From the NCBI RefSeq assembly GCF_021172045.1, contig NZ_CP087164.1:5084001-5148000 (forward strand): DNA of 64,000 bases. The letters are read 5' to 3'. How positions within the stretch are numbered: position 1 is the stretch's first letter; each line of letters opens with the position of its first letter. The position numbers and the translations under genes were made by a program. This DNA comes from Capillimicrobium parvum (lineage in GTDB: Bacteria > Actinomycetota > Thermoleophilia > Solirubrobacterales > Solirubrobacteraceae). The notes under the pieces are model-generated. The model had not been told where the DNA came from. It searched no databases and was given only the letters and a program-made list of their open reading frames with translations. Positions 41,874 to 60,677 of the stretch are shown in pieces.

Positions 41874-43421
41874 ATGGCGGTCGACACGAGCACGGGCACG
41901 GGCACGAAGCGTCAGTACGGGTTCGCCATCGATCACCGGTCGTGCATCGGCTGTCATGCGTGCACCGTGGCGTGCAAGACCGAGCACGGCGTCGAGCTCG
42001 GCGTGTTCCGGACGTGGGTGAAGTACATCGAGCGGGGCGAGTTCCCGGACACGCGCCGGTATTTCTCGGTGCTGCGCTGTAACCACTGCACCGATGCGCC
42101 GTGCGTGCAGATCTGTCCGGTCAAGGCGCTGACCAAGCGCGAGGACGGGATTGTCGACTTCGATGCGGACCGGTGCATCGGCTGCAAGGCGTGTTTGAAC
42201 GCGTGCCCGTATGACGCGCTGTACATCGATCCGCAGTCGAACACGGCGCACAAGTGCAACTTCTGCGCGCACCGGGTCGACACGGGCATGAAGCCGGCCT
42301 GCGAGGTGGTGTGTCCGACGAAGGCGATCGTGTCCGGCGATCTCAACGATCCGGTGTCGGAGATCAGCCGGCTGCTCGCGGTCGTGCCGGCACAGGTCCG
42401 CGCGCCCGAGCAGGGCACCGGGCCGAACGTCTTCTATCTCGGCGCCGACGAGGCGTCGCTGGACCCGTTGCAGGTGGGCGGCGGCGACGGCTACCTCTAC
42501 AGCGAGGTTCCCGACTCCCAGCGCGAGAAGCTCGCGCCGCTGACGGAGGAGGCGACCGCCACGGCGATGCACGACATCGGCCACTCCGCGCCGTGGGGCT
42601 GGCGGGTTTCGAGCTACTTCTTGTCGAAGGGCATCGCCGCGGGCGCGATGATGCTGGCCGCGCTGCTGCTGGTCGTGGGCGTCGACTCCTCCGCGCTCGG
42701 CGATGTGGTGCCCGGGCTGCTGGCGCTGGCGGGGATCGCCGTCACCGGCCTGTTCTTGGTGTGGGATCTCAAGCAGCCCAAGCGCGCGATCTACCTGTTC
42801 ACGCGCCCGCAGTGGCGATCGTGGCTGGCGCTGGGCGCGCAGTGCATCAACGTCGCGGCGGTCGTCGCGTTCGCGTTCACCGTCGCTGCGCTGCTCGGGG
42901 CCGACAGTGTGCGCGACGCGCTGGCGTGGGCGATGATCCCGGCCGGCGCGCTGCTGGCGGGCTACACGGCGTTTCTCTTCAACCAGTGCGAGGGCCGGGA
43001 TCTGTGGCAGAGCCCGCTGCTGCTACCGCACACGCTCGTCAACGCGGCCGTGGCCGGCGCCGGAGCGCTCGGCATCGTGGCGCTCTTCGTCGACGCGCCC
43101 TCTGCGGCGACGCGCGCGCTGGCCTGGGCGCTGCTGGCCGCCGCCGCGTGCAGCGCGATCATCGGCGCGCTGGACATCTTCGGGCGCCACCAGACCAAGC
43201 AGGCCGAGCGCGCGGCGACCAACCTCTGGCGTGACCTGTACGCGCGTCGCTTCTGGGCCGGTGTCGTGGCCGCCACCGTGCTGCCGTGCGTGCTGGCCGC
43301 GGTGTACCTCGTGGCCGGGGGGGCCCTGGTGCTCGCGGCCGGCGGCCTGGTGGCGCTGGTCGGACTGTGGCTCTACGAGGACGCCTGGGTGCGGGCCGGC
43401 CAGAGCGTGCCGCTGAGCTGA
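41874..43421 (+). CDS. Four-cluster ferredoxin fused to NrfD-type membrane anchor
   Basis: 515 residues. Residues about 15-180 carry four Cys clusters of the DmsB/NrfC type (CIGCHACTVACK, CNHCTDAPCVQICP, CIGCKACLNACP, CNFCAHRVDTGMKPACEVVCP), enough for four [4Fe-4S] centres. From about 255 on there are about eight hydrophobic segments of an NrfD/PsrC-like quinone-reactive anchor. Usually these are two separate subunits; here they are one polypeptide. It would pass electrons between the quinone pool and the molybdopterin subunit encoded next (two-base gap). Confidence 0.88.
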   Translation: MAVDTSTGTGTKRQYGFAIDHRSCIGCHACTVACKTEHGVELGVFRTWVKYIERGEFPDTRRYFSVLRCNHCTDAPCVQICPVKALTKREDGIVDFDADRCIGCKACLNACPYDALYIDPQSNTAHKCNFCAHRVDTGMKPACEVVCPTKAIVSGDLNDPVSEISRLLAVVPAQVRAPEQGTGPNVFYLGADEASLDPLQVGGGDGYLYSEVPDSQREKLAPLTEEATATAMHDIGHSAPWGWRVSSYFLSKGIAAGAMMLAALLLVVGVDSSALGDVVPGLLALAGIAVTGLFLVWDLKQPKRAIYLFTRPQWRSWLALGAQCINVAAVVAFAFTVAALLGADSVRDALAWAMIPAGALLAGYTAFLFNQCEGRDLWQSPLLLPHTLVNAAVAGAGALGIVALFVDAPSAATRALAWALLAAAACSAIIGALDIFGRHQTKQAERAATNLWRDLYARRFWAGVVAATVLPCVLAAVYLVAGGALVLAAGGLVALVGLWLYEDAWVRAGQSVPLS

Positions 43422-43423
43422 CC

Positions 43424-46377
<2,954 letters not shown>

Positions 46378-46381
<4 letters not shown>

Positions 46382-50399: not shown

Positions 50400-51176
50400 T
50401 CAGGCTCCCGGCGGGCCGCCCAGGGCCAGCACGTCGACGAGCAGGAAGACCCCGACGGCGGCCACGACGACGGCGAACGCGCGGCCGAGGACGGCGTGCG
50501 GCAGGCGCCGGCCGATCGACGTGCCGAACACCGCGCCCGCGGCGGTCGCGAGCGCGAGCTCCGCGGTGATGCCGACGTCCATGCGCGCGCCGCCGACGAG
50601 ATGGCTCGCCAGCGCGGCCACGCCGGTGAGCGTGATGATGACCAGCGAGGTCGCGACGGCGCGACGGAACGGGACGCCGAGCCAGAGGGTGAGGACCGGC
50701 ACGATCATGAAGCCGCCGCCGACGCCGAAGAACCCGGTCAGCAGGCCGACCCCGGCCCCGGCGATCGCGGCGCGGGCGTACGGGATGTGCGGACAGGCCG
50801 GCCGATCGTCGGTGTGCCCGGCCGACGCCCGCTGCCACGTCGCGCCGGCGGCGATCGCCATGACCGGCACGAAGGACAGGATGAGAACGCGCGGGCTGAC
50901 CGCGTCGTTGGCGAGCGTGCCCACGATGGACGCGGCCGCCGCGGGCGCGCTGAACGCGAGCGCGACGGTCCAGCACACATGGCCGTGGCGAGCGAGCGAG
51001 CCGGCGCCGACGGCCGCCGCCACCGCGACGACGACGAGCGAGGCGGTCGAGGCGGGGCCCACAGGCTGGTCGAGCAGGTAGACGAGCACGGGCAGCGCGA
51101 GGATGGCGCCGCCGCCGCCGACCGCGCCGACGATCAGACCGATCGCGACGCCCAGCGGGATCGCCAGCGCGATCAT
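50400..51176 (-). CDS. TauE/SafE-family sulfite/anion exporter
   Basis: 258 residues, about eight hydrophobic segments. Two repeats of the TauE/SafE signature occur: GLIVGAVGGGGAILALPVLVYLL near the N-terminus and GVGLLTGFFGVGGGFMIVPVL in the middle. The family exports sulfite or sulfonate-derived anions. Third gene of the rhodanese-ArsR-TauE operon; its ATG overlaps the ArsR stop (ATGA). It probably removes sulfite produced by the persulfide dioxygenase-like enzyme. Confidence 0.87.
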   Translation of the reverse strand: MIALAIPLGVAIGLIVGAVGGGGAILALPVLVYLLDQPVGPASTASLVVVAVAAAVGAGSLARHGHVCWTVALAFSAPAAAASIVGTLANDAVSPRVLILSFVPVMAIAAGATWQRASAGHTDDRPACPHIPYARAAIAGAGVGLLTGFFGVGGGFMIVPVLTLWLGVPFRRAVATSLVIITLTGVAALASHLVGGARMDVGITAELALATAAGAVFGTSIGRRLPHAVLGRAFAVVVAAVGVFLLVDVLALGGPPGA

Positions 51177-51523
51177 CCGGCGGCGGTGCCGCCCACGAGC
51201 GCCGTGAGCTCGGCCAGCTGCGCCTGCAGGCTGCCGCACACCTGCTCGCACAGCTCATAGACCCCGGGATCGCTGACGGCGTAGCGCACGCTCGTGCCGA
51301 CCTTCCGGCGCGAGACGATGCCGGCGCCGTGCAGCACGCCGAGGTGCTTGGAGACGTTCTGCTGACCGGCGCCGAGCAGCTCGGTCAGCTCCTGGACGGA
51401 TCGCTCGCCGTCGCGTAGGGCGTCGAGCAGCCGCAACCGGGTCGGATCGCCGATCGCGCGCAGCCGGCCGGCGATCATCTCGGCGAGCTCGAGCGGGATG
51501 GGGCGGGGCAGCGACGTGCTCAT
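51173..51523 (-). CDS. ArsR-family redox/sulfur-responsive repressor (1)
   Basis: 116 residues. Winged HTH with IGDPTRLRLLDALRDGERSVQELTELLGAGQQNVSKHLGVLHGAGIVSRRKVGTSV, the normal ArsR core. It lacks the ArsR-type metal motif ELCVCDL; instead a CEQVC pair sits in the C-terminal helix (YELCEQVCGSL), which suits thiol or persulfide sensing as in SqrR/BigR relatives. ATGA overlaps on both sides. It is a paralogue of the second ArsR gene at 52717 and probably binds the 18-bp palindrome upstream of the operon. Confidence 0.85.
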   Translation of the reverse strand: MSTSLPRPIPLELAEMIAGRLRAIGDPTRLRLLDALRDGERSVQELTELLGAGQQNVSKHLGVLHGAGIVSRRKVGTSVRYAVSDPGVYELCEQVCGSLQAQLAELTALVGGTAAG

Positions 51524-52638
51524 CGGGTCGCGCAGCTGTTGCCGCCGGACTCGAGATCGGGGTCGACGGCGGTGCGGCCGGCGTTGGCGTCGATGACGGC
51601 GGCGTAGTTGGCCGGGCGAGGTGGCATGCCCTGCAGGATGTGCTCGGCGAACTCGTCGGAGTCGGCGATCGACAGCTCGGCGACCCTGGCGCGCACGTCG
51701 CCCAACCGGGGGGCGACCGCGCCGGTGCGGACCACGGCGTGGTCGTGGCCGGGCAGCAGGACGACGTCGTCGCCGAGCGCCAGGACGCGCTCGTGCAAGG
51801 TGGTGTGGAGCGTCCGCGCCATCACGCGGGCGCCGTCGGGGTCGCCGCGCTCGAGGTCCGGGCGCGCGAGCCCGTCGGCGAACAGGGAGTCGCCGGAGAG
51901 GAGGACCCGGCCGGCCAGGAGCAGCCCGGTCATGTCGGTGGTGTGCCCGGGGAGGGCGATCGCGGTCACGTCGATGCCGCCGATCGTGAGCACGTCCCCG
52001 TCGCGCACGGCCTGCACCTCGTCGGCGTAGGCGACGCCGCGGTCGATCGACGCCTGCGGCATGTGCAGCGCCGCGCCCGCGCTCGCGGCCAGCTCGCGCG
52101 CGCCCGAGAGGTGGTCGGCGTGCAGGTGGGTGTCGAAGACGGCGACGATGCGCGCGCCCAGCTCGTCGGCGACGTCGCGGTAGAAGGCGGCGTCCGGCGC
52201 CGGGTCGACGACGAGCGCCTCACCGCCGGCGGCCAGGACGTAGGAGAGGCAGCCGCGGCCGGGGCGTTGGACCTGGCGCACCTGGAGCCCTTCGACGCCG
52301 AGGTCGACGGGCACCGCGCGCAGCACGTGCAACCAGCCGCGCATGCCGCCGTCGAGGATCTGGGGCGCCTCCATGCCGGCGGCGCACAGCGCCTCGGCGA
52401 CGCCGCGCGCGGAGAGGCCGCGGTGGCAGACGACGACGGTGTCGGCGGCCAGCTCGGCGGCGAGCGCGCCCGCCGCCTCGGTCGCCTCGCCCGCGGGCAC
52501 GTGCCGGAGGCGGGCGGCGGCGGCCTCGATGGGGGCATCGGCATCGGCGCGTACGTCGAGCACGGCGGTCGGTTCGCCCGCGACCAGGCGCGCGAGCAGC
52601 GCCCGGGGAGCGATGGTGGTCGGAGCGGCGATTTTCAT
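51520..52638 (-). CDS. Rhodanese-metallo-beta-lactamase fusion (persulfide dioxygenase-like)
   Basis: 372 residues from ATG at 52638. An N-terminal rhodanese-like domain (TVVVCHRGLSARGVAEAL with the active-site Cys in CHRGLSA) precedes a metallo-beta-lactamase domain with THLHADHLSG (HxHxDH), LPGHTTDMTG, LLSGDSLFAD and LPGHDHA; the DH and HADH ligands are all present. ETHE1-type persulfide dioxygenases have this MBL fold. The order here (rhodanese first) is the reverse of CstB. First gene of the operon. A minus-strand TATTGT ends six bases before the ATG, so the transcript may be leaderless. Confidence 0.86.
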   Translation of the reverse strand: MKIAAPTTIAPRALLARLVAGEPTAVLDVRADADAPIEAAAARLRHVPAGEATEAAGALAAELAADTVVVCHRGLSARGVAEALCAAGMEAPQILDGGMRGWLHVLRAVPVDLGVEGLQVRQVQRPGRGCLSYVLAAGGEALVVDPAPDAAFYRDVADELGARIVAVFDTHLHADHLSGARELAASAGAALHMPQASIDRGVAYADEVQAVRDGDVLTIGGIDVTAIALPGHTTDMTGLLLAGRVLLSGDSLFADGLARPDLERGDPDGARVMARTLHTTLHERVLALGDDVVLLPGHDHAVVRTGAVAPRLGDVRARVAELSIADSDEFAEHILQGMPPRPANYAAVIDANAGRTAVDPDLESGGNSCATR

Positions 52639-52651
52639 ACTTGCACAATAC

Positions 52652-52669
52652 CACAACTGTACAGTTGTG
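52652..52669. promoter_or_regulatory. ArsR operator 1: CACAACTGTACAGTTGTG
   Basis: Perfect 18-bp palindrome occupying the presumed -35/-10 spacer in front of the rhodanese-MBL gene. Nearly the same sequence (16 of 18) occurs in front of the MMPL gene at 55248-55265. Its position in front of two operons that each encode an ArsR protein makes it the likely binding site for one or both. Confidence 0.72.
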
Positions 52670-52716
52670 AAACGAAGCCCTGCCGAGCGAGACCGTGGCC
52701 AGCAGGCGGCTCGCCG

Positions 52717-53082
52717 CTACCCTGCGCGGCGGGCCGGTGTCACCGGCCCGGCCCCCTCGACCAGCGCGGTCAGCTCGGCGAACTGGGCGTGCAGGCTGCC
52801 GCACACCTGCTCGCACAGCTCGTAGACCGTCTTGTCCGCGACGGCGTAGAACGCGCTCGTGCCCTCCTTGCGGCGCGAGACGATGCCGGCGGCGTGCAGC
52901 ACCCCGAGATGCTTGGACGCGTTCTGCTGGCTCGTGCCCAGCGCTTCGGTGAGCTGCTGGACCGACTGCTCGCCGTCGCGCAGGACGTCGAGCAGCCGGA
53001 TGCGGGTCGGATCGCCGATCACGCGCAGGCGCGCGGCGATGAGCTCGGCCAGCTCGGCAGGGATCGGTCGCGGCAGGTTCAT
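52717..53082 (-). CDS. ArsR-family repressor (2), paralogue of the first
   Basis: 121 residues. IGDPTRIRLLDVLRDGEQSVQQLTEALGTSQQNASKHLGVLHAAGIVSRRKEGTSAFY is the same winged HTH as at 51173, and it shares YELCEQVCGSL with the two Cys. The two proteins are clearly paralogous over their whole length. It follows the MMPL gene by 19 bases on the same strand and is presumably co-transcribed with it. Confidence 0.85.
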   Translation of the reverse strand: MNLPRPIPAELAELIAARLRVIGDPTRIRLLDVLRDGEQSVQQLTEALGTSQQNASKHLGVLHAAGIVSRRKEGTSAFYAVADKTVYELCEQVCGSLHAQFAELTALVEGAGPVTPARRAG

Positions 53083-53101
53083 CGCGGCCCTGGATCTTGC
53101 C

Positions 53102-55213
53102 TCACGCGTGCCCGAAGCGGACGTCGGGCAGGACGCGGTGCATCCAGCGCGGCGACCACCACGCCCAGTGCCCCAGCAGCCGCAGCAGCACCGGGAGCAG
53201 AAGCAGCCGGACGAGCGCCGCGTCGAGGAGCACGGCGATCCCGAGGATCACGCCCATCTCCTTGGGCGGCAGCGGGCCGCTCAGCGCGAAGGTGAAGAAC
53301 ACCGCGACCATGACGGCCGCGGCGGCGAAGATCACCCGGCCGGAATGCGCCATCGCGCCGACCATCGCCTCGCGTGGGTCGTGCGAGCGGTCCCAGTGCT
53401 CCTTCGCCGACGACAGCAGAAACACCGTGTAGTCCATGGAGATCGCGAAGATCATCGCGAAGAAGAACACGGGCCCCCACGCGTCGAGGAAGCCCTGCGC
53501 CTCGAAGCCGAGCAGGCCCGCCAGGTGCCCGTCCTGGAAGACGAGCTTGGCCACGCCGAACGCGGCGCCGGTCGCCAGCAGGTTCGTCGCCACGCCCACG
53601 GCGGCGATGATCGGCGCCTGCAGGGCCACGAGGAGCAGCAGGAACCCGAGGCCGAGCACGACGCCAATCACGAGCGGCGTGCGGTCGGCGAGCACCTGCT
53701 CGAGATCGTGGTTCTCGGCCACCGCCCCGCCGACGAGCGCACCGGGCGGCAGGTCCGCGCGCAGGCGGTCGACCGTCGCGCCCATCTGCTTGCTCGACGG
53801 GTCGGTCCTGGCGATCGCCTGGATCAGCGCCGTGCCACCGGCGCCGCGCTGGACGGGCATGACCTGGGCGATCGCCGGATCGGCCTGGGCCACCGCGGCC
53901 GCCTTCGCCGCCTCGCCGGCGGGCGCGACGATCTGCAGCGGCCCGGTGGCCCCGGGGCCGAAGGCGCGCTGGACCGCCTCGTAGCCCTGGCGCGAGCCGT
54001 CGCCCTGAGGCACGACCTTGATCGACGGCATGCCGGTGTCGAGATGCAGCACCGGAGTCGCCAGTACGACGAGGACGGCGAGCGCCGCGAGGCCATACCC
54101 CCACGGACGCCGCCACAGGCGCTCGCCCCACGCGGCGAACCGGGCCGACCGGTGCTCGCCCGACCGGACCCAGGGCAGCGAGAGCTTGTCGACGCGCGGG
54201 CCGAGCTTGGCGAGCACGGCGGGCAGCAGCGTCAGCGTGGCCGCCAGGACGAAGATGACCGAGAGCATGATCCCGAGCGCCATCGAGCGAAACGCGGGAC
54301 TGGGGACGAGCATCACCGCGCTCAGGGAGATGAGGACCGTCGCGCCGCTGAACAGGACGGCCTGGCCGGCGGTGTCCATCGTCTCGCTGACCGCCTCCTC
54401 GGCGCTCAGGCCGCTGCCGAAGAACGCGCCGCGGAAGCGCATCACCACGAACAGCGCGTAGTCGATCCCCAGCGCCAGCGCGAACATCAGCGCGAAGTTC
54501 ATGGCCCAGATCGAGATGTCGAGCAGCTGGGTACCGAGGTACAGCGAGCCCGCCGCGGTGACCAGGCCGACGATGGTGAGCATGAGCGGCAGGCCGGCGG
54601 CGACGAGCGAGCCGAACGCGAGCACGAGGATGGCCAGCGTGACCGGCCAGGAGATCAGCTCGGACTTCATCATCGCCGTCTTGTTGGCCTCGTTGAAGTC
54701 CGACCACATCCCGGATGCGCCGGTCAGGTCGACCCGCACGGCGTCGGTGCCGAGCGCGGCGAGCTCGGTCTTGAGGTCGTCGGCGGCGCGCACCATCTCG
54801 TTCGCGTTCCTGGCCGCGCCGGCCTGGATGACGGCGGTGTGCCCGTCACGGGAGATCGACACGCCCGCCTGCGGCGCGACGACGGTGGTCACCGCCTCGC
54901 TGCGCCCCAGCGCCTGCTCGGCGCGCGTGACGGTCTGGCGGAAGGCCGGGTCGCCCGCCGTCTGGGAGGCCGAGTGCACGACGACCATGAGCGCGTAGCT
55001 CGACAGGCCCTGGAAGTTGCGGTCGACCAGGTCCCGCGCCTGGACGGACTCCGAGCCCGTCGCCTCCCAGCCGGCGCCGGAGAGCGCGTGCTCGACGCGC
55101 GGAGCGAGGAAGCCGAGCCCGATCGCGAGGACGATCCACACGATGGCGACCGCGCGCACGTGCGTCGCGGTCCAGTGGCCGAGCCGGCCGATGGGTCCGA
55201 GGGCGCTCACCAC
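53102..55213 (-). CDS. MMPL-family RND transporter
   Basis: 703 residues from GTG (AAGGAGG five bases upstream; a second GTG follows directly). Two-fold arrangement of about 12 TM segments: a first hydrophobic anchor, an extracellular domain (about 40-180), a first block of 5-6 TM (WPVTLAILVLAFGSLVAAGLPLML to RSMALGIMLSVIFVLAATLTLLPAV), a second extracellular domain and a second block (LVIGVVLGLGFLLLLVALQ; FFAMIFAISMDYTVFLLSSAKEHWD). The ALGIDYALFVVMRFR and ISMDYTVFLLS motifs are typical of MmpL/YdfJ-type exporters of lipids or hydrophobic compounds. Under the shared ArsR operator. Confidence 0.87.
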   Translation of the reverse strand: MVSALGPIGRLGHWTATHVRAVAIVWIVLAIGLGFLAPRVEHALSGAGWEATGSESVQARDLVDRNFQGLSSYALMVVVHSASQTAGDPAFRQTVTRAEQALGRSEAVTTVVAPQAGVSISRDGHTAVIQAGAARNANEMVRAADDLKTELAALGTDAVRVDLTGASGMWSDFNEANKTAMMKSELISWPVTLAILVLAFGSLVAAGLPLMLTIVGLVTAAGSLYLGTQLLDISIWAMNFALMFALALGIDYALFVVMRFRGAFFGSGLSAEEAVSETMDTAGQAVLFSGATVLISLSAVMLVPSPAFRSMALGIMLSVIFVLAATLTLLPAVLAKLGPRVDKLSLPWVRSGEHRSARFAAWGERLWRRPWGYGLAALAVLVVLATPVLHLDTGMPSIKVVPQGDGSRQGYEAVQRAFGPGATGPLQIVAPAGEAAKAAAVAQADPAIAQVMPVQRGAGGTALIQAIARTDPSSKQMGATVDRLRADLPPGALVGGAVAENHDLEQVLADRTPLVIGVVLGLGFLLLLVALQAPIIAAVGVATNLLATGAAFGVAKLVFQDGHLAGLLGFEAQGFLDAWGPVFFFAMIFAISMDYTVFLLSSAKEHWDRSHDPREAMVGAMAHSGRVIFAAAAVMVAVFFTFALSGPLPPKEMGVILGIAVLLDAALVRLLLLPVLLRLLGHWAWWSPRWMHRVLPDVRFGHA

Positions 55214-55247
55214 GCCACCTCCTTCGAGTTCATGCGCTCAACCGTAT

Positions 55248-55265
55248 CACAACTGTGTAGTTGTG
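55248..55265. promoter_or_regulatory. ArsR operator 2: CACAACTGTGTAGTTGTG
   Basis: Inverted repeat with 7-base arms CACAACT and AGTTGTG and a GTGT centre, 16 of 18 identical with operator 1. It lies 35 bases upstream of the MMPL start and just after the end of the small zinc-ribbon gene. Confidence 0.7.
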
Positions 55266-56104: not shown

Positions 56105-56243
56105 GACGGCACCCCGCACCCGCACCCCGCACCGGCACCCCGCACCCGCACCCCGCACCCGCACCCGCACCCGCACCCGCACCCCGCACCCGCACCCGCA
56201 CCGGCACGCGCACCGGCACCGGCACCGGCGCCGGCGCCGGCGC
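56105..56243. repeat. GC-rich hexamer tandem repeat (GCACCC-type)
   Basis: About 140 bases made of near-perfect GCACCC/GCACCCC units (C-rich on the + strand), ending in GGCACC and GGCGCC variants. It lies between the divergent ICMT-type and maleylacetate reductase genes. Repeats of this kind change length by slippage. The minus-strand translation is a Val/Arg/Gly repeat and not a real protein. Confidence 0.85.
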
Positions 56244-56261: not shown

Positions 56262-56291
56262 TTGACAACCCACGCGCGAGCCGACCACACT
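56262..56291 (+). promoter_or_regulatory. Possible promoter of the maleylacetate reductase gene
   Basis: TTGACA at 56262-56267 is followed 18 bases later by CACACT (56286-56291) and the ATG lies at 56301. The -35 is perfect, the -10 is weak. Confidence 0.4.
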
Positions 56292-56300
56292 GCCGTTCGC

Positions 56301-57419
56301 ATGTCGCCACACATTTCGCCCAGCGAAAACACGGTCGGGTCGTTCGTCTACGACGCGCTGCCCGGGAGGGTCGTGTTCGGGAGCGGGGCGAGCACCGGGC
56401 GGCTGGCCGCGGAGGTCGAGCGCCTCGGCTGCGAGCGCGTGCTGGTGGTCGCGGCCGAGCCCGAGCGCGAGCTGGCGCGCCGGCTCGTCGCGCCGCTGGG
56501 CGACCGGGTCGCCGCGACGTTCGAGGAGGTGCGCGCGCACGTGCCGGTCGAGGTCGCGCAGCGCGCCCGGGCGGCCGCGCGCGACGCGCGCGCCGACGGG
56601 CTGCTGTGCATCGGCGGCGGTTCGACGACCGGGACCGCCAAGGCGATCGCGCTCGAGCAGCCGCTGCCGATCGTCGCCGTCCCGACGACGTACGCCGGGT
56701 CGGAGATGACGCCGGTGTGGGGCCTGACCGAGGGCCGGCGCAAGACGACCGGGCGGGACGCCGCCGTGCAGCCGGCCGTCGTCGTCTACGACCCCGAGCT
56801 CACGCTCACCCTGCCGCCGGAGATCAGCGGCCCGAGCGCGATGAACGCGATGGCCCACTGCGTCGAGGCGTTCTACGCGCCCGGGGCCAACCCGATCACC
56901 AGCCTGATGGCCGAGGAGGGCATCCGCGCCCTGGCCCGCGGCGTCCCGGTCGCCGTCGAGCGGCCCGGCGACCTCGACGGCCGGGCCGACACGCTCTACG
57001 GCGCCTATCTCGCCGGCGCGGCGTTCGCCGTCGCCGGCTCCGGCCTGCACCACAAGATCTGCCACGCGCTCGGGGGCGCGTTCGACCTGCCCCACGCTCA
57101 GACCCACACGATCGTGCTGCCGCACGTCGTCGCCTACAACGCCCCGGCGATGCCGGCGATCGCCGAGCGCCTCGACCGCGTCCTCGGCGAGCGGGGGGAT
57201 CCCGCCGCCGCGCTCTACGACCTCGCGGCCGGGATCGGCGCGCCCATGGCGCTCGCCGACGTCGGCCTGCCCGCCGGCGGCATCGACGAGGTGCTCGAGC
57301 CCATCCTCGCCGTGGTGCCGCCGAGCAACCCGCGCCCGGTCGACGCCGACGGGCTGCGCGCCGTGCTGGCCGGCGCGGCCGCCGGCGTGCGGCCGTCGGC
57401 GGCGATCCTGAACCGATGA
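56301..57419 (+). CDS. Maleylacetate reductase (iron-containing ADH family)
   Basis: 372 residues from MSPHISPSENTVG (an in-frame ATG at 56262 would overlap the -35). NAD(P)-binding segment LCIGGGSTTGTAKAIAL, PTTYAGSEMTPVWG, and metal-binding residues in AHCVEAFYAPGAN and HKICHALGGAFDLPHAQTH identify this group III ADH family. MAR reduces maleylacetate to 3-oxoadipate, the last lower-pathway step of hydroxyquinol, resorcinol and chlorophenol breakdown. The intradiol dioxygenase gene follows 14 bases later. Confidence 0.88.
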   Translation: MSPHISPSENTVGSFVYDALPGRVVFGSGASTGRLAAEVERLGCERVLVVAAEPERELARRLVAPLGDRVAATFEEVRAHVPVEVAQRARAAARDARADGLLCIGGGSTTGTAKAIALEQPLPIVAVPTTYAGSEMTPVWGLTEGRRKTTGRDAAVQPAVVVYDPELTLTLPPEISGPSAMNAMAHCVEAFYAPGANPITSLMAEEGIRALARGVPVAVERPGDLDGRADTLYGAYLAGAAFAVAGSGLHHKICHALGGAFDLPHAQTHTIVLPHVVAYNAPAMPAIAERLDRVLGERGDPAAALYDLAAGIGAPMALADVGLPAGGIDEVLEPILAVVPPSNPRPVDADGLRAVLAGAAAGVRPSAAILNR

Positions 57420-57433
57420 AGGAGCCGAGACGC

Positions 57434-58324
57434 ATGACCGAGCAGGCCGAGCGACGCAACCTGTCCGACACCGAGCTCACCGACGCGGTGCTCACGAGCT
57501 TCGCCACGAGCGGCGACGCCCGCTTCCGCCGGATCGCCGAGAGCCTCGTGCGCCACCTCCATGCGTTCGCCGCCGACGTACAGCTCACCGAGGAGGAGTG
57601 GTTCGCCGGCATCGACTTCCTGACCCGCACGGGCCACATCACCGACGACAAGCGTCAGGAGGTCGTGCTGCTCTCCGACGTGCTCGGCCTGTCGATGCAG
57701 GTCATCGGCATCAACCACCGCCACCCCGGCGGCGCCACCGAGTCGACCGTGTTCGGGCCGTTCTTCGTCGCGGGCTCCCCCGCGTTCGCCAACGGCGACG
57801 ACATCGCCGCGGGCGCGCCCGGTCAGCCGTGCTGGATGCAGGGGCGCGTCGTCTCGACCGACGGCACACCGATCCCCGACGCGCTCATCGAGGTCTGGCA
57901 GGCCGACGAGGACGGCTTCTACGACGTGCAGATCGCCGACCTCGACGCCGTCCGCGGCCGCGGCCACCTGCGCTCCGCCGACGACGGCCGCTTCTGGTTC
58001 TGGTCGGTCCTGCCCGAGGCCTACCCGATTCCGGACGACGGCCCGGTGGGCGACCTGCTCAAGGCGGCCGGCCGCAGCCCGATGCGTCCCGCGCACGTGC
58101 ACTTCAAGATCGACGCGCCGGGCTACGCGACGCTCATCACCCACGTCTTCGTCGAAGGCGACCAGTACCTCGACACCGACGCGGTCTTCGGGGTCAAGAG
58201 CTCCCTGATCGCGCCGTTCGAGCGTCACGAGGGCGGCAGCGCCACGCCGGACGGGCGCGAGCTCGACGGCCCGTGGTACTCGATGCAGTACGACATGGTG
58301 CTCGCGCCGGCGCCCGCGCGTTAG
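57434..58324 (+). CDS. Intradiol ring-cleavage dioxygenase (hydroxyquinol 1,2-type)
   Basis: 296 residues from ATG at 57434 (AAGGAG about nine bases upstream; an earlier ATG at 57416 overlaps the previous stop). The N-terminal helical domain (LSDTELTDAVLTSFATS to GHITDDKRQEVVLLSDVLGLSMQVI) and the catalytic domain with iron ligands: Tyr in GFYDVQ, Tyr in EAYPIPDDGPVG, His and His in RPAHVHFKI. Cleaves hydroxyquinol or a catechol to maleylacetate or muconate, matching the upstream reductase. Its stop overlaps the convergent LacI gene. Confidence 0.88.
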   Translation: MTEQAERRNLSDTELTDAVLTSFATSGDARFRRIAESLVRHLHAFAADVQLTEEEWFAGIDFLTRTGHITDDKRQEVVLLSDVLGLSMQVIGINHRHPGGATESTVFGPFFVAGSPAFANGDDIAAGAPGQPCWMQGRVVSTDGTPIPDALIEVWQADEDGFYDVQIADLDAVRGRGHLRSADDGRFWFWSVLPEAYPIPDDGPVGDLLKAAGRSPMRPAHVHFKIDAPGYATLITHVFVEGDQYLDTDAVFGVKSSLIAPFERHEGGSATPDGRELDGPWYSMQYDMVLAPAPAR

Positions 58325-59325
58325 GCCCGCGCCGGCGCGCCGTGCGAGCCGCGCGGCACGAGCTCGACCGGGACCCGCACGCGGCGCGGCGGGCGCCCCG
58401 GATCGTCGATCCGGTCGAGCAGGAGGCGGATCGCGGCGCCGCTCATGGCCGCTAGGTCCTGGCGCACGGTCGTCAGGCGGAACACCTCCCAGGCGGCCAT
58501 CGCGATGTCGTCGAAGCCGACGATCGTGAGCCGGTCCGGGACCGGGATCCCGAGCGCGCGCGCCGCGTTGAGCGCGCCGACCGCGACGACGTCGTTGCCG
58601 CAGAAGACGGCGCTGGGCGGATGGGGCGCCGCCATCAGGCTCGCCAGCCCCTCGTGGCCCGTGGCCGTCGAGAACGGGCCGCGACGCACCCGCGCATCGG
58701 CGAGCGCGATGCCCCGCTGTGCCAGGCCGGCGCGCAGGCCGGCCTCGCGGTCGCGGCCGGTGCTCGTGTCCGCCGGGCCGAGGATCGCGCCGATCTCGGT
58801 GTGCCCGAGGCCGGCGAGCAGCGTCGCCACCTCGCGTCCTCCGCCGGCGTTGTCGCTCTCGCAGGCGTCGGCGGCGTCGCCGCCGGCCGTCCGGTTGAAC
58901 TGCACCACCGGCAGCCCGCGGTCCGCGAGCGCGCCGGGCAGCGCCGAGCCCACGAGCGTCGTGGTGAGGATGGCGGCGTCGACCGCGCCGTCGAGCAGCT
59001 GCTCGGCGGCGAACGGCCGGCCGGGCAGGTCGGTGTGGACGACGGCCCGCCGGCCGGCCGCGTCGAGCGCGGCGTGCAGGTGCAGGATCGCCTCGCTGTA
59101 GAACGGGTTGCCGAGGTCGCGGACCACGACGGCGACCTGGCCCGTGGCCCGCGTCGACAGGCTGCGGCCGCGCCGGCTCGGCACGTAGGCGAGCGCGCCC
59201 GCGGCCTCGCGCACCCGGCGGATCGTGTCAGGCGCCACGCGCGGATCGCCTCGTAGCGCGCGCGAGACCGTGGGCTGCGAGACGCCCGCGAGCGCCGCGA
59301 CGTCATGGCTGGTCGGGGCCCGCAC
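58321..59325 (-). CDS. LacI-family transcriptional regulator
   Basis: 334 residues. N-terminal HTH TSHDVAALAGVSQPTVSRALRGDPRVAPDT (with the LacI hinge region RRGRSLSTRATGQVAVVV), then a periplasmic-binding-like sensor domain (LTIVGFDDIAMAAWEVFRLTTVRQDL; LLLDRIDDPGRPPRRVRVPVELVPRGS). It is divergent from the histidinol-dehydrogenase-like gene with a CpG-centred operator between the two starts, so it most likely controls that operon; its stop overlaps the dioxygenase stop. Confidence 0.9.
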   Translation of the reverse strand: MRAPTSHDVAALAGVSQPTVSRALRGDPRVAPDTIRRVREAAGALAYVPSRRGRSLSTRATGQVAVVVRDLGNPFYSEAILHLHAALDAAGRRAVVHTDLPGRPFAAEQLLDGAVDAAILTTTLVGSALPGALADRGLPVVQFNRTAGGDAADACESDNAGGGREVATLLAGLGHTEIGAILGPADTSTGRDREAGLRAGLAQRGIALADARVRRGPFSTATGHEGLASLMAAPHPPSAVFCGNDVVAVGALNAARALGIPVPDRLTIVGFDDIAMAAWEVFRLTTVRQDLAAMSGAAIRLLLDRIDDPGRPPRRVRVPVELVPRGSHGAPARA

Positions 59326-59356
59326 GGGGCGTCACCCTACCCGATCGCCTGGGGCG

Positions 59357-59372
59357 TTGCATACGTATGTAA
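59357..59372. promoter_or_regulatory. LacI-type operator TTGCATACGTATGTAA
   Basis: 16-bp near-perfect palindrome (7 of 8 pairs) centred on CpG, as in LacI-family operators. A TAAGAT (-10) at 59370-59375 overlaps its right arm and ends six bases before the ATG at 59382, so the regulated transcript would start at or next to the start codon (leaderless). Confidence 0.68.
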
Positions 59373-59381
59373 GATTCGCGG

Positions 59382-60677
59382 ATGATCGCCGCCGACGACG
59401 TTCGCTACCTCAAGTCCCCCGGCCCCCCGACGCCGGAGGCGGGCGCCGAGATCCGCCGCCGGGTCGAGGAGATCCTGGCCGACATCGAGGCGGGCGGCGC
59501 CGACGCCGTGCGCCGCTGGTCGCGCGACCTCGACGGCTGGGATCCGCCGAGCTTCGTCGCCACCGAGCAGGACGTCGAGCGGGCGGCCGCGCAGCTCGAT
59601 CCCGCGCTCCGCGACCACATCGCCTTCGCCCAGCGCCAGGTCCGCGGCTTCGCCGAGGCCCAGCGCGCCACGCTGACCGACCTGCGCGTCGAGCCCCTGC
59701 CCGGCGTCGTGCTCGGGCACCGCCACATCCCGGTCGGCTCGGTCGGCGCCTACGTCCCCGGCGGGCGCTATCCGATGCTCGCATCGTCGTTCATGACGGT
59801 CCTCGTCGCCAAGGCCGCCGGCGTGCCCCAGGTCATCGCCTGCGCGCCGCCGCAGCGCGAGGGCGGCATCCACCCCGCGATGCTGCACGCGATGGCGACC
59901 TCGGGCGCGGACGCGGTCGTCTGCCTCGGCGGCGTCCAGGCCCTCGCGGCGCTGGCCTTCGGCCTGATCGACGACCTGCCGGCGGTCGACATGCTCGTCG
60001 GGGCCGGCAACGCCTACGTCGCCGAGGCCAAGCGGCAGCTGTTCGGGCGGGTCGGCATCGACCTGCTCGCGGGCCCGACCGAGGTGCTCGTCGTGGCCGA
60101 CGGGACCGCCGACCCGCGCATCGTCGCCGCCGACGTCCTCGGCCAGGCCGAGCACGGGCCGACCTCGCCCGCCGGCGTGATCGCCATCGGCGAGGACGTC
60201 GCGCGCGCGGTCGCGGGCCAGATCGAGTCGCTGCTGCAGACATGGCCGACCGCGGAGATCGCCGGGCAGGCGTGGCGCGACCACGGCTGGATCGCGATCG
60301 TCGACTCCGACGACCAGGCCATCGCGCTCGCCGACGAGGCCGCGAACGAGCACCTCGAGATCCAGGTCGACGACGCCAAGCTCGACGACTACCTCGCCCG
60401 CCTGCGCAACTACGGCTCGCTCTTCCTCGGCGCCCAGGCGACCGTGGCCTACGGCGACAAGGGCGTCGGGACCAACCACGTCCTGCCGACCGCGCGGGCC
60501 GCGCGCTACACCGGCGGCCTGTGGGTGGGCAAGTTCCTGAAGACGTGCACGTGGCAGCGGCTGACGCCGGAGGGCACGCGCGCGGTGGCGCCGGCGATCG
60601 AGGCGATCTGCGCGGCCGAGCACATGGAGGGCCACGGGCTGACCGCGACCATGCGCCTGGAGCGCGCACGGGCATGA
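59382..60677 (+). CDS. Histidinol-dehydrogenase-like dehydrogenase (catabolic paralogue)
   Basis: 431 residues. All catalytic HisD positions are present: zinc and catalytic residues in DVLGQAEHGPTSP (Gln, His), NEHLEIQV (Glu, His), GDKGVGTNHVLPT (Asp) and AEHMEGHGLTA (His). It is not in a histidine operon; a LacI repressor, an SDR, an IclR regulator and flavoprotein surround it. Relatives in such settings oxidise other diols, for example dihydroxypropanesulfonate by HpsN. The substrate here is unknown, but a polyol or sulfonate alcohol is plausible. Its stop overlaps the SDR start (ATGA). Confidence 0.85.
   Translation: MIAADDVRYLKSPGPPTPEAGAEIRRRVEEILADIEAGGADAVRRWSRDLDGWDPPSFVATEQDVERAAAQLDPALRDHIAFAQRQVRGFAEAQRATLTDLRVEPLPGVVLGHRHIPVGSVGAYVPGGRYPMLASSFMTVLVAKAAGVPQVIACAPPQREGGIHPAMLHAMATSGADAVVCLGGVQALAALAFGLIDDLPAVDMLVGAGNAYVAEAKRQLFGRVGIDLLAGPTEVLVVADGTADPRIVAADVLGQAEHGPTSPAGVIAIGEDVARAVAGQIESLLQTWPTAEIAGQAWRDHGWIAIVDSDDQAIALADEAANEHLEIQVDDAKLDDYLARLRNYGSLFLGAQATVAYGDKGVGTNHVLPTARAARYTGGLWVGKFLKTCTWQRLTPEGTRAVAPAIEAICAAEHMEGHGLTATMRLERARA

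Follow-up and report, generated by a model that had tools for sequence, protein, structure and literature searches.

A conserved candidate operator joins ArsR-type regulators, sulfur genes and an MMPL transporter in Capillimicrobium parvum and its relatives

In the bigR operon of Xylella and Agrobacterium, BigR is encoded together with a sulfurtransferase-dioxygenase (Blh) and TauE, and it reads the -10 region (PMC5823870, accessible part). In Streptomyces coelicolor the sulfane-sulfur sensor ScCsoR governs a persulfide dioxygenase (PDO), a rhodanese and TauE from the operator ATACCn6GGTAT, according to the accessible part of PMC7533328. BigR, SqrR and YgaV form a reactive-sulfur group, cluster 4 of a sequence similarity network (SSN), which the consulted portion of PMC10509353 defines by one cysteine in helix alpha2 and one in alpha5; the atypical As(III) sensors of SSN cluster 5 take three cysteine ligands, all from alpha5. 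The presence of RND pumps beside sulfane-sulfur ArsRs is remarked on in the consulted text of PMC12423496. Here we analyze a 64,000-nucleotide stretch of the Capillimicrobium parvum genome (hereafter the window), in which two operons with a common 18-bp palindrome encode two ArsR-type regulators, a rhodanese-like protein fused to a metallo-beta-lactamase (MBL) domain, a TauE-family protein and an MMPL transporter. We regard it as probable that an ArsR released by reactive sulfur controls both sulfane-sulfur oxidation and an MmpL3-like exporter at this locus.

The locus and its described counterparts

Read along the minus strand, the order is operator A, MMPL, ArsR2, operator B, rhodanese-MBL, ArsR1 and TauE:

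55248-55265, minus strand: putative operator A, preceding MMPL-ArsR2 (pattern match; the motif recurs before related operons)
53102-55213, minus strand: MMPL transporter, 703 residues (Pfam MMPL, 234.7 bits against a gathering score of 20.5)
52717-53082, minus strand: ArsR2, with two cysteines three residues apart (CX3C; C90, C94) in alpha5 (NCBIfam HTH_metalloreg, 81.6 bits against 55)
52652-52669, minus strand: putative operator B, preceding rhodanese-MBL/ArsR1/TauE (pattern match)
51520-52638, minus strand: rhodanese-like N-terminal and persulfide-dioxygenase-like MBL C-terminal domains (Pfam Lactamase_B, 60.4 bits)
51173-51523, minus strand: ArsR1, a CX3C paralogue of ArsR2 (HTH_metalloreg, 82.3 bits; the model places both proteins in the ArsR/SmtB family)
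50400-51176, minus strand: TauE/SafE sulfite-exporter family protein (Pfam TauE, 136 bits against 32.6)

Neighboring genes of rhodanese-MBL/ArsR1/TauE (operon B) overlap by 4 bp at each junction and look like a single transcript unit; a gap of 19 bp separates MMPL from ArsR2 (operon A). The start codons of rhodanese-MBL and TauE are our choice. The two ArsRs are 79% identical, and each carries the sequence CEQVC and no other cysteine. All five genes and both palindromes called in the initial annotation, grouped as MMPL/ArsR and rhodanese-MBL/ArsR/TauE, were found in place.

Operon B has the same content as the bigR operon: an ArsR-fold repressor, a sulfurtransferase-dioxygenase fusion and a TauE-related exporter. 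It differs in that the window ArsRs lack the alpha2 cysteine and carry CX3C in alpha5, and in the linkage to an MMPL; the window proteins also fall below the cut-offs of the BigR equivalog NF040642 (41.9 and 47.9 bits against 155) and the Blh equivalog NF040641 (32.5 against 625). In predicted function operon B matches the ScCsoR circuit, in which an actinobacterial sulfane-sulfur sensor stands over a PDO, a rhodanese and a sulfite exporter; however, that repressor is of CsoR rather than ArsR type, and the consulted part of the paper mentions no MMPL. In Escherichia coli the ArsR regulator YgaV adjoins YgaP, a sulfurtransferase/membrane protein, and many relatives of the window operons hold a YgaP-like small protein, but YgaV has Cys31 at the alpha2 position and one C-terminal cysteine, and no MMPL is annotated in the 6 kb around ygaV. 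MmpL3, the trehalose monomycolate exporter, is similar to the window MMPL in fold and in its Asp-Tyr pairs, whereas the window protein, at 201.5 bits, is far from reaching the 1400 bits that NCBIfam sets for the MmpL3 equivalog and would be under ArsR and sulfur-linked control.

The palindrome in the genome and across the class

The sequence CACAACTGTACAGTTGTG at operator B is a perfect palindrome, while CACAACTGTGTAGTTGTG at operator A is imperfect in its center only. Within the window the palindrome gives four strand-matches at up to three mismatches, against 0.07 expected from shuffles. The observation of one 18-bp palindrome in front of both operons is confirmed. On each coding strand the palindrome continues into an extended -10-like string of the form TG-N-TANNNT (TGGTATTGT and TGATACGGT, recognized by eye); a consensus promoter scan found no promoter.

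In the 5.95-Mb genome the pattern ACAACTNNNNAGTTGT has only two sites at 0-1 mismatch, both at 0. The genome search suggested in the initial annotation thus recovered the two known sites exactly, but no further copy at this stringency. Ten further sites at two mismatches were rejected as regulon members: the reversed control gives six at up to two mismatches, which puts the ten near background. Because the genome has no other site at 0-1 mismatch, the regulon of this species, as far as the operator shows, consists of these two operons. About 4 kb from the end of TauE, on the plus strand at 41874-46381, lies a complex iron-sulfur molybdoenzyme with no operator site at 0-1 mismatch. It comprises a 4Fe-4S/NrfD fusion of 515 residues and a molybdopterin subunit, which NCBIfam matches best to the thiosulfate reductase PhsA (202 bits against a cut-off of 694). 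Possible identities of the enzyme are sulfite dehydrogenase and thiosulfate/polysulfide reductase.

We followed the palindrome beyond this genome, using 159 genomes of the class Thermoleophilia for gene counts and 399 genomes for the exact-site search. Two further sets overlap but were drawn separately: 80 loci on named genome contigs, those most similar to ArsR2, found partly by a cysteine-motif pattern, and 60 stretches containing ArsR2 relatives or exact sites (two of them picked for operator sites), which are part of the matches listed. Many of the 80 stretches end at contig ends. In 61 of the 80 loci an operator with at most two mismatches lies between 150 bp upstream of the ArsR gene and 30 bp inside it, against 0-1 for eight scrambled palindromes; at three mismatches the count rises to 69, against 0-11. 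Measured from the ArsR start, the 61 sites lie at 5-85 bp with a median of 27, a spacing that could let a repressor block a promoter. Eleven loci are without a site even at three mismatches, and in five of these the operator precedes an earlier gene of the operon: rhodanese-MBL in L139, L140, L142 and L143, and an SQR-like gene in L195. Across 683 kb (the 60 stretches and part of the window) ACAACTNNNNAGTTGT has 74 matches at up to two mismatches, compared with 0-11 for four scrambles. The comparison argues for a shared operator and for the predicted ArsR control of both operons, as the initial annotation had it.

The exact form CACAACTNNNNAGTTGTG occurs at eight sites in 7 of the 399 genomes. 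Six are at ArsR/MMPL or rhodanese-MBL/ArsR operons, and the remaining two precede a rhodanese gene (L045) and a DsrE-family gene (L046). Away from an ArsR, the operator also stands before a glutaredoxin-like gene in L118. L142 and L158 are Thermoleophilia-type loci on public contigs titled Bifidobacterium breve; the titles look wrong.

A wider pattern, YACAACY...RGTTGTR, is found in 53 of the 399 genomes (reversed control, 2). It was kept out of the regulon counts, since in its CC...GG form it runs across the start of a different type of ArsR-like gene in at least seven loci. By eye, TACAACC-N4-(A/G)GTTGTA overlaps such a start in L115, L124, L126, L128, L130, L134 and L136; these sites, mostly in one other family (f2), are look-alikes that belong to another regulator.

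Cysteines of the regulator and sulfur genes around it

In the AlphaFold2 model of ArsR2 both cysteines lie in helix alpha5 (residues 85-108; block pLDDT 86-91), and Asp32 lies in alpha2 (25-34). The CEQVC pair is therefore in the C-terminal helix, where the initial annotation had placed it. A similarity search made without a cysteine pattern found C-x3-C near the C-terminus in both window ArsRs and in 58 of 58 relatives; in 54 of these 60 proteins, both window proteins included, the two cysteines are the only ones. CX3C is present in all 80 loci as well, a figure biased by the part the cysteine motif played in finding them. Cys31 of E. coli YgaV aligns with Asp32, a position occupied by Asp in 58 of the 60 proteins, once by Glu, once by Asn, and never by Cys. 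The second YgaV cysteine lies past C94, 8 residues further on as aligned and 4 if the gap is disallowed. Because the alpha2 cysteine is replaced and both cysteines are in alpha5, the window ArsRs are not BigRs despite their BigR-like setting; with their scores below the cut-off, membership of the BigR/SqrR group was rejected. Of the claim that CEQVC is a thiol site for persulfide, the pair itself stands in both ArsRs, but its arrangement differs from that of the known persulfide-sensor pair. Persulfide sensing by the window ArsRs is suggested by the regulon together with the thiols.

Two alpha5 thiols could also belong to a thiol-ligand sensor of metals or metalloids (As(III), Cu, Cd or an organometal), with the MMPL pumping lipophilic toxicants and the sulfur genes supplying or repairing thiols. 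A soft metal could find ligands in CX3C, perhaps four cysteines per dimer, and alpha5 cysteines are used by the atypical As(III) sensors (PMC10509353, consulted part); a published title also calls E. coli ygaVP a tributyltin-inducible operon. Assignment to the alpha5 As(III) type was rejected, however, because that type has three cysteines and 54 of the 60 proteins have two. The CmtR Cd/Pb model gives 52.8 and 46.8 bits, far below the NCBIfam cut-off of 150. Neighbor clusters present in at least 4 loci hold sulfur/thiol genes along with a few of housekeeping or signalling function, and no metal-efflux family was recognized among them (partly by eye, with many small clusters unnamed). We consider a metal sensor quite unlikely.

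Sulfur genes recur around this ArsR. At least one of PDO-like, rhodanese, SQR-like and TauE genes is found in 27 of the 80 loci, and these or thioredoxin, OsmC, DUF302 or CoADR-like genes in 40; only 3 loci have none of these, no MMPL and no YgaP-like gene. SQR-like, CoADR-like (CoA-disulfide-reductase-like) and PDO-like are cluster names given here, while the Pfam domains of these clusters are general ones. Pfam backs the cluster names for representatives, except for the SQR-like cluster, which shows general oxidoreductase domains only and whose nearest NCBIfam model, type III SQR, is below its cut-off. A small protein weakly resembling the membrane domain of YgaP is present in 48 of the 80 loci (one of six tested is above the Pfam cut-off), and none was called beside the window ArsRs. 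Together with the operators before rhodanese and DsrE genes, the 27 loci lend comparative support to the sulfur-gene regulon first proposed from the window.

The rhodanese domain of the window fusion scores 21.1 bits with Pfam PF00581, just under the gathering score of 22.2, and its loop cysteine is present in all six aligned proteins, the window's included. The MBL motifs THxHADH (HxHxDH), GHTxDMTG and ARPDL are likewise kept in six of six. The best PDB match is 3tp9, a beta-lactamase/rhodanese protein (5.3e-23), and further matches are ETHE1 (4chl, 5e-15), BpPRF (5ve3, 1.8e-15) and 4ysb (1.3e-16); BpPRF and 4ysb are persulfide dioxygenases. By motif and structural similarity the protein is a predicted ETHE1-like persulfide dioxygenase.

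Family f23 of the same phylum offers an independent set for the sensor. CX3C is kept in 12 of the 12 ArsR relatives examined, and a PDO-, SQR-, TauE-, DUF302-, Trx- or rhodanese-like match lies within 1.5 kb in 11. In 12 longer f23 stretches (L257-L268; 9 from the same genomes), where CX3C ArsRs occur with sulfur genes, a sulfur-type match was found in 10, some at only 30-38% identity, and neither the operator (at up to two mismatches) nor an MMPL was found. As the f23 relatives keep sulfur genes without an MMPL, this ArsR is more broadly associated with sulfur genes than with the MMPL.

Judged by its neighborhood and the genes at its operator, the window ArsR is a predicted reactive-sulfur sensor by function. 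It might alternatively be a general thiol-redox sensor of peroxide, electrophiles or disulfide, with sulfide as one of several inducers. Such a role is favored by the thioredoxin, OsmC and glutaredoxin-like genes found close to some of the operator sites and by the precedent of RexT, a dithiol ArsR with H2O2 as its signal and thioredoxin under its control (PMC8960804, consulted part). In RexT, however, the two cysteines (40 and 41) are adjacent and sit elsewhere in the protein, and other genes near this operator (PDO-like, SQR-like, TauE, rhodanese and DsrE) speak for sulfane sulfur. We hold general redox sensing to be unlikely.

The MMPL transporter and the predicted circuit

Among the families queried, the MMPL is the commonest near this ArsR: in 62 of the 80 loci the ArsR stretch also contains a relative of at least 50% identity, at a distance of 3-1876 bp. 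The 159 class genomes contain 48 MMPL orthologs, the window's included. Among the matches listed, the others are 65-78% identical and are separated by a clean gap from paralogs at 40% or less, with one exception, a copy in the C. parvum genome itself. This second MMPL (L249, G000:C1:1117627-1119699) is 58% identical, has one cysteine in the aligned part, and has neither the operator nor an ArsR nearby. An ArsR (E <= 1e-25) and an MMPL ortholog occur together in 45 genomes, the ArsR alone in 12, the MMPL alone in 3 and neither in 99, a table that ignores descent. For 41 of the 48 orthologs, the window's included, an ArsR lies close by on the same contig, as judged by eye from the two lists. Upstream of five of the remaining seven there is an operator or a fragment of an ArsR, and the last two show neither. 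These counts favor the claim that the MMPL is under the same control as the sulfide detoxification genes. The pairing was also initially called unusual; instead, the MMPL is a frequent partner, and RND pumps next to sulfane-sulfur ArsRs are already in print (PMC12423496, consulted part).

Foldseek aligns the MMPL with MmpL3 (TMq 0.87, 24% identity). The pairs D251-Y252 and D594-Y595, presumably a proton relay as in MmpL3, are invariant in 23 aligned MMPL rows. The window protein has no cysteine, and 55 of 59 orthologs have none while four have one (only matches of at least 60% identity over more than 600 aligned residues were kept). By comparison, 40 paralogous MMPLs of the class, hand-picked from the matches listed, average 1.3 cysteines, with 15 having none. 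The orthologs are about 19-fold poorer in cysteine per residue, uncorrected for descent. Near absence of cysteine would suit a pump working amid reactive sulfur; descent alone could explain part of the scarcity.

The reading we favor, a reactive-sulfur-responsive ArsR over both operons, draws on features present in the sequences themselves: the operator and its conservation, the gene content, the CX3C pair and the fold. Binding, repression, inducer chemistry and cargo we infer as follows. Both 18-bp palindromes would serve as operators for a repressor dimer made of ArsR1 and/or ArsR2, which at 79% identity can probably each use both. Sulfane sulfur (persulfide or polysulfide) would modify Cys90 and Cys94, one turn apart in alpha5, and the modified repressor would leave the DNA, turning both operons on. 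From operon B, the rhodanese-persulfide dioxygenase would oxidize sulfane sulfur to sulfite, and TauE would export the sulfite. From operon A, the MmpL3-like proton-driven exporter would remove its cargo, at best guess a hydrophobic or lipid-linked compound that arises under sulfur stress, and ArsR2 would act as a second repressor copy providing feedback.

Several observations weigh against this circuit. No PDO, rhodanese, SQR or TauE gene is seen within the available stretch in 53 of the 80 loci, and the sulfur link for that reason rests on a minority of loci and on the common operator. The 80 loci are related by descent, so that their counts are not independent, and 19 of them have no site at up to two mismatches before the ArsR. 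Not every operator site fits a sulfur regulon, since some, such as the L112 site before a secG-like gene (by eye), precede nothing recognizably sulfur-linked. The known persulfide-sensor pair, alpha2 plus alpha5, is absent, and a search of the C. parvum genome with one distant SQR-like query (E <= 1e-10, no positive control) gave no match. The nearest solved MMPL relatives move lipids and siderophores rather than sulfur.

The operator might be common to the two operons only through a recent duplication of the ArsR promoter region, the MMPL having no role in sulfur stress. The 79% identity of ArsR1 and ArsR2 and the 53 loci without a core sulfur gene agree with a duplication. Yet across the class the MMPL is linked to the operator where only one ArsR is present, and an MMPL occurs together with a core sulfur gene in 17 of the 80 loci; we judge this explanation very improbable. 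A bolder form of the favored reading would make the unit a class-wide sulfur-stress operon, in which the alpha5 CX3C reacts within the helix or bridges the dimer and the MMPL expels lipid-soluble sulfane sulfur or persulfide-damaged lipid. That version is doubtful, though not far-fetched.

In the open-access literature, which leaves out most subscription papers, we found no paper joining ArsR, MMPL and sulfide. As far as these searches show, the class-wide operator-ArsR-MMPL unit, the tie of an alpha5 CX3C to sulfur genes and the nearly cysteine-free pump are new, and the alpha5 CX3C would be a dithiol site distinct from those of the reactive-sulfur sensors described in the consulted parts of the literature. 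In this deep actinobacterial class a regulator, its candidate operator and a membrane pump become open to joint testing. A response of the ArsR to persulfide would give reactive-sulfur sensing a second geometry of cysteines; if the MMPL is sulfide-induced and protective, a transporter family of envelope lipids and drug efflux would gain a sulfur role, and the expulsion of hydrophobic sulfane sulfur from cells would become a testable question.

Beyond operator A, the intergenic region at 56107-56240 contains short GC-rich repeats of the CACCCG/CACCGG type (by eye). It is followed at 56262-60677 by an iron-type alcohol dehydrogenase (maleylacetate-reductase-like by eye), a histidinol dehydrogenase and, both by eye, an intradiol-dioxygenase-like frame and a LacI-type regulator, which together look like an aromatic-ring catabolic cluster.

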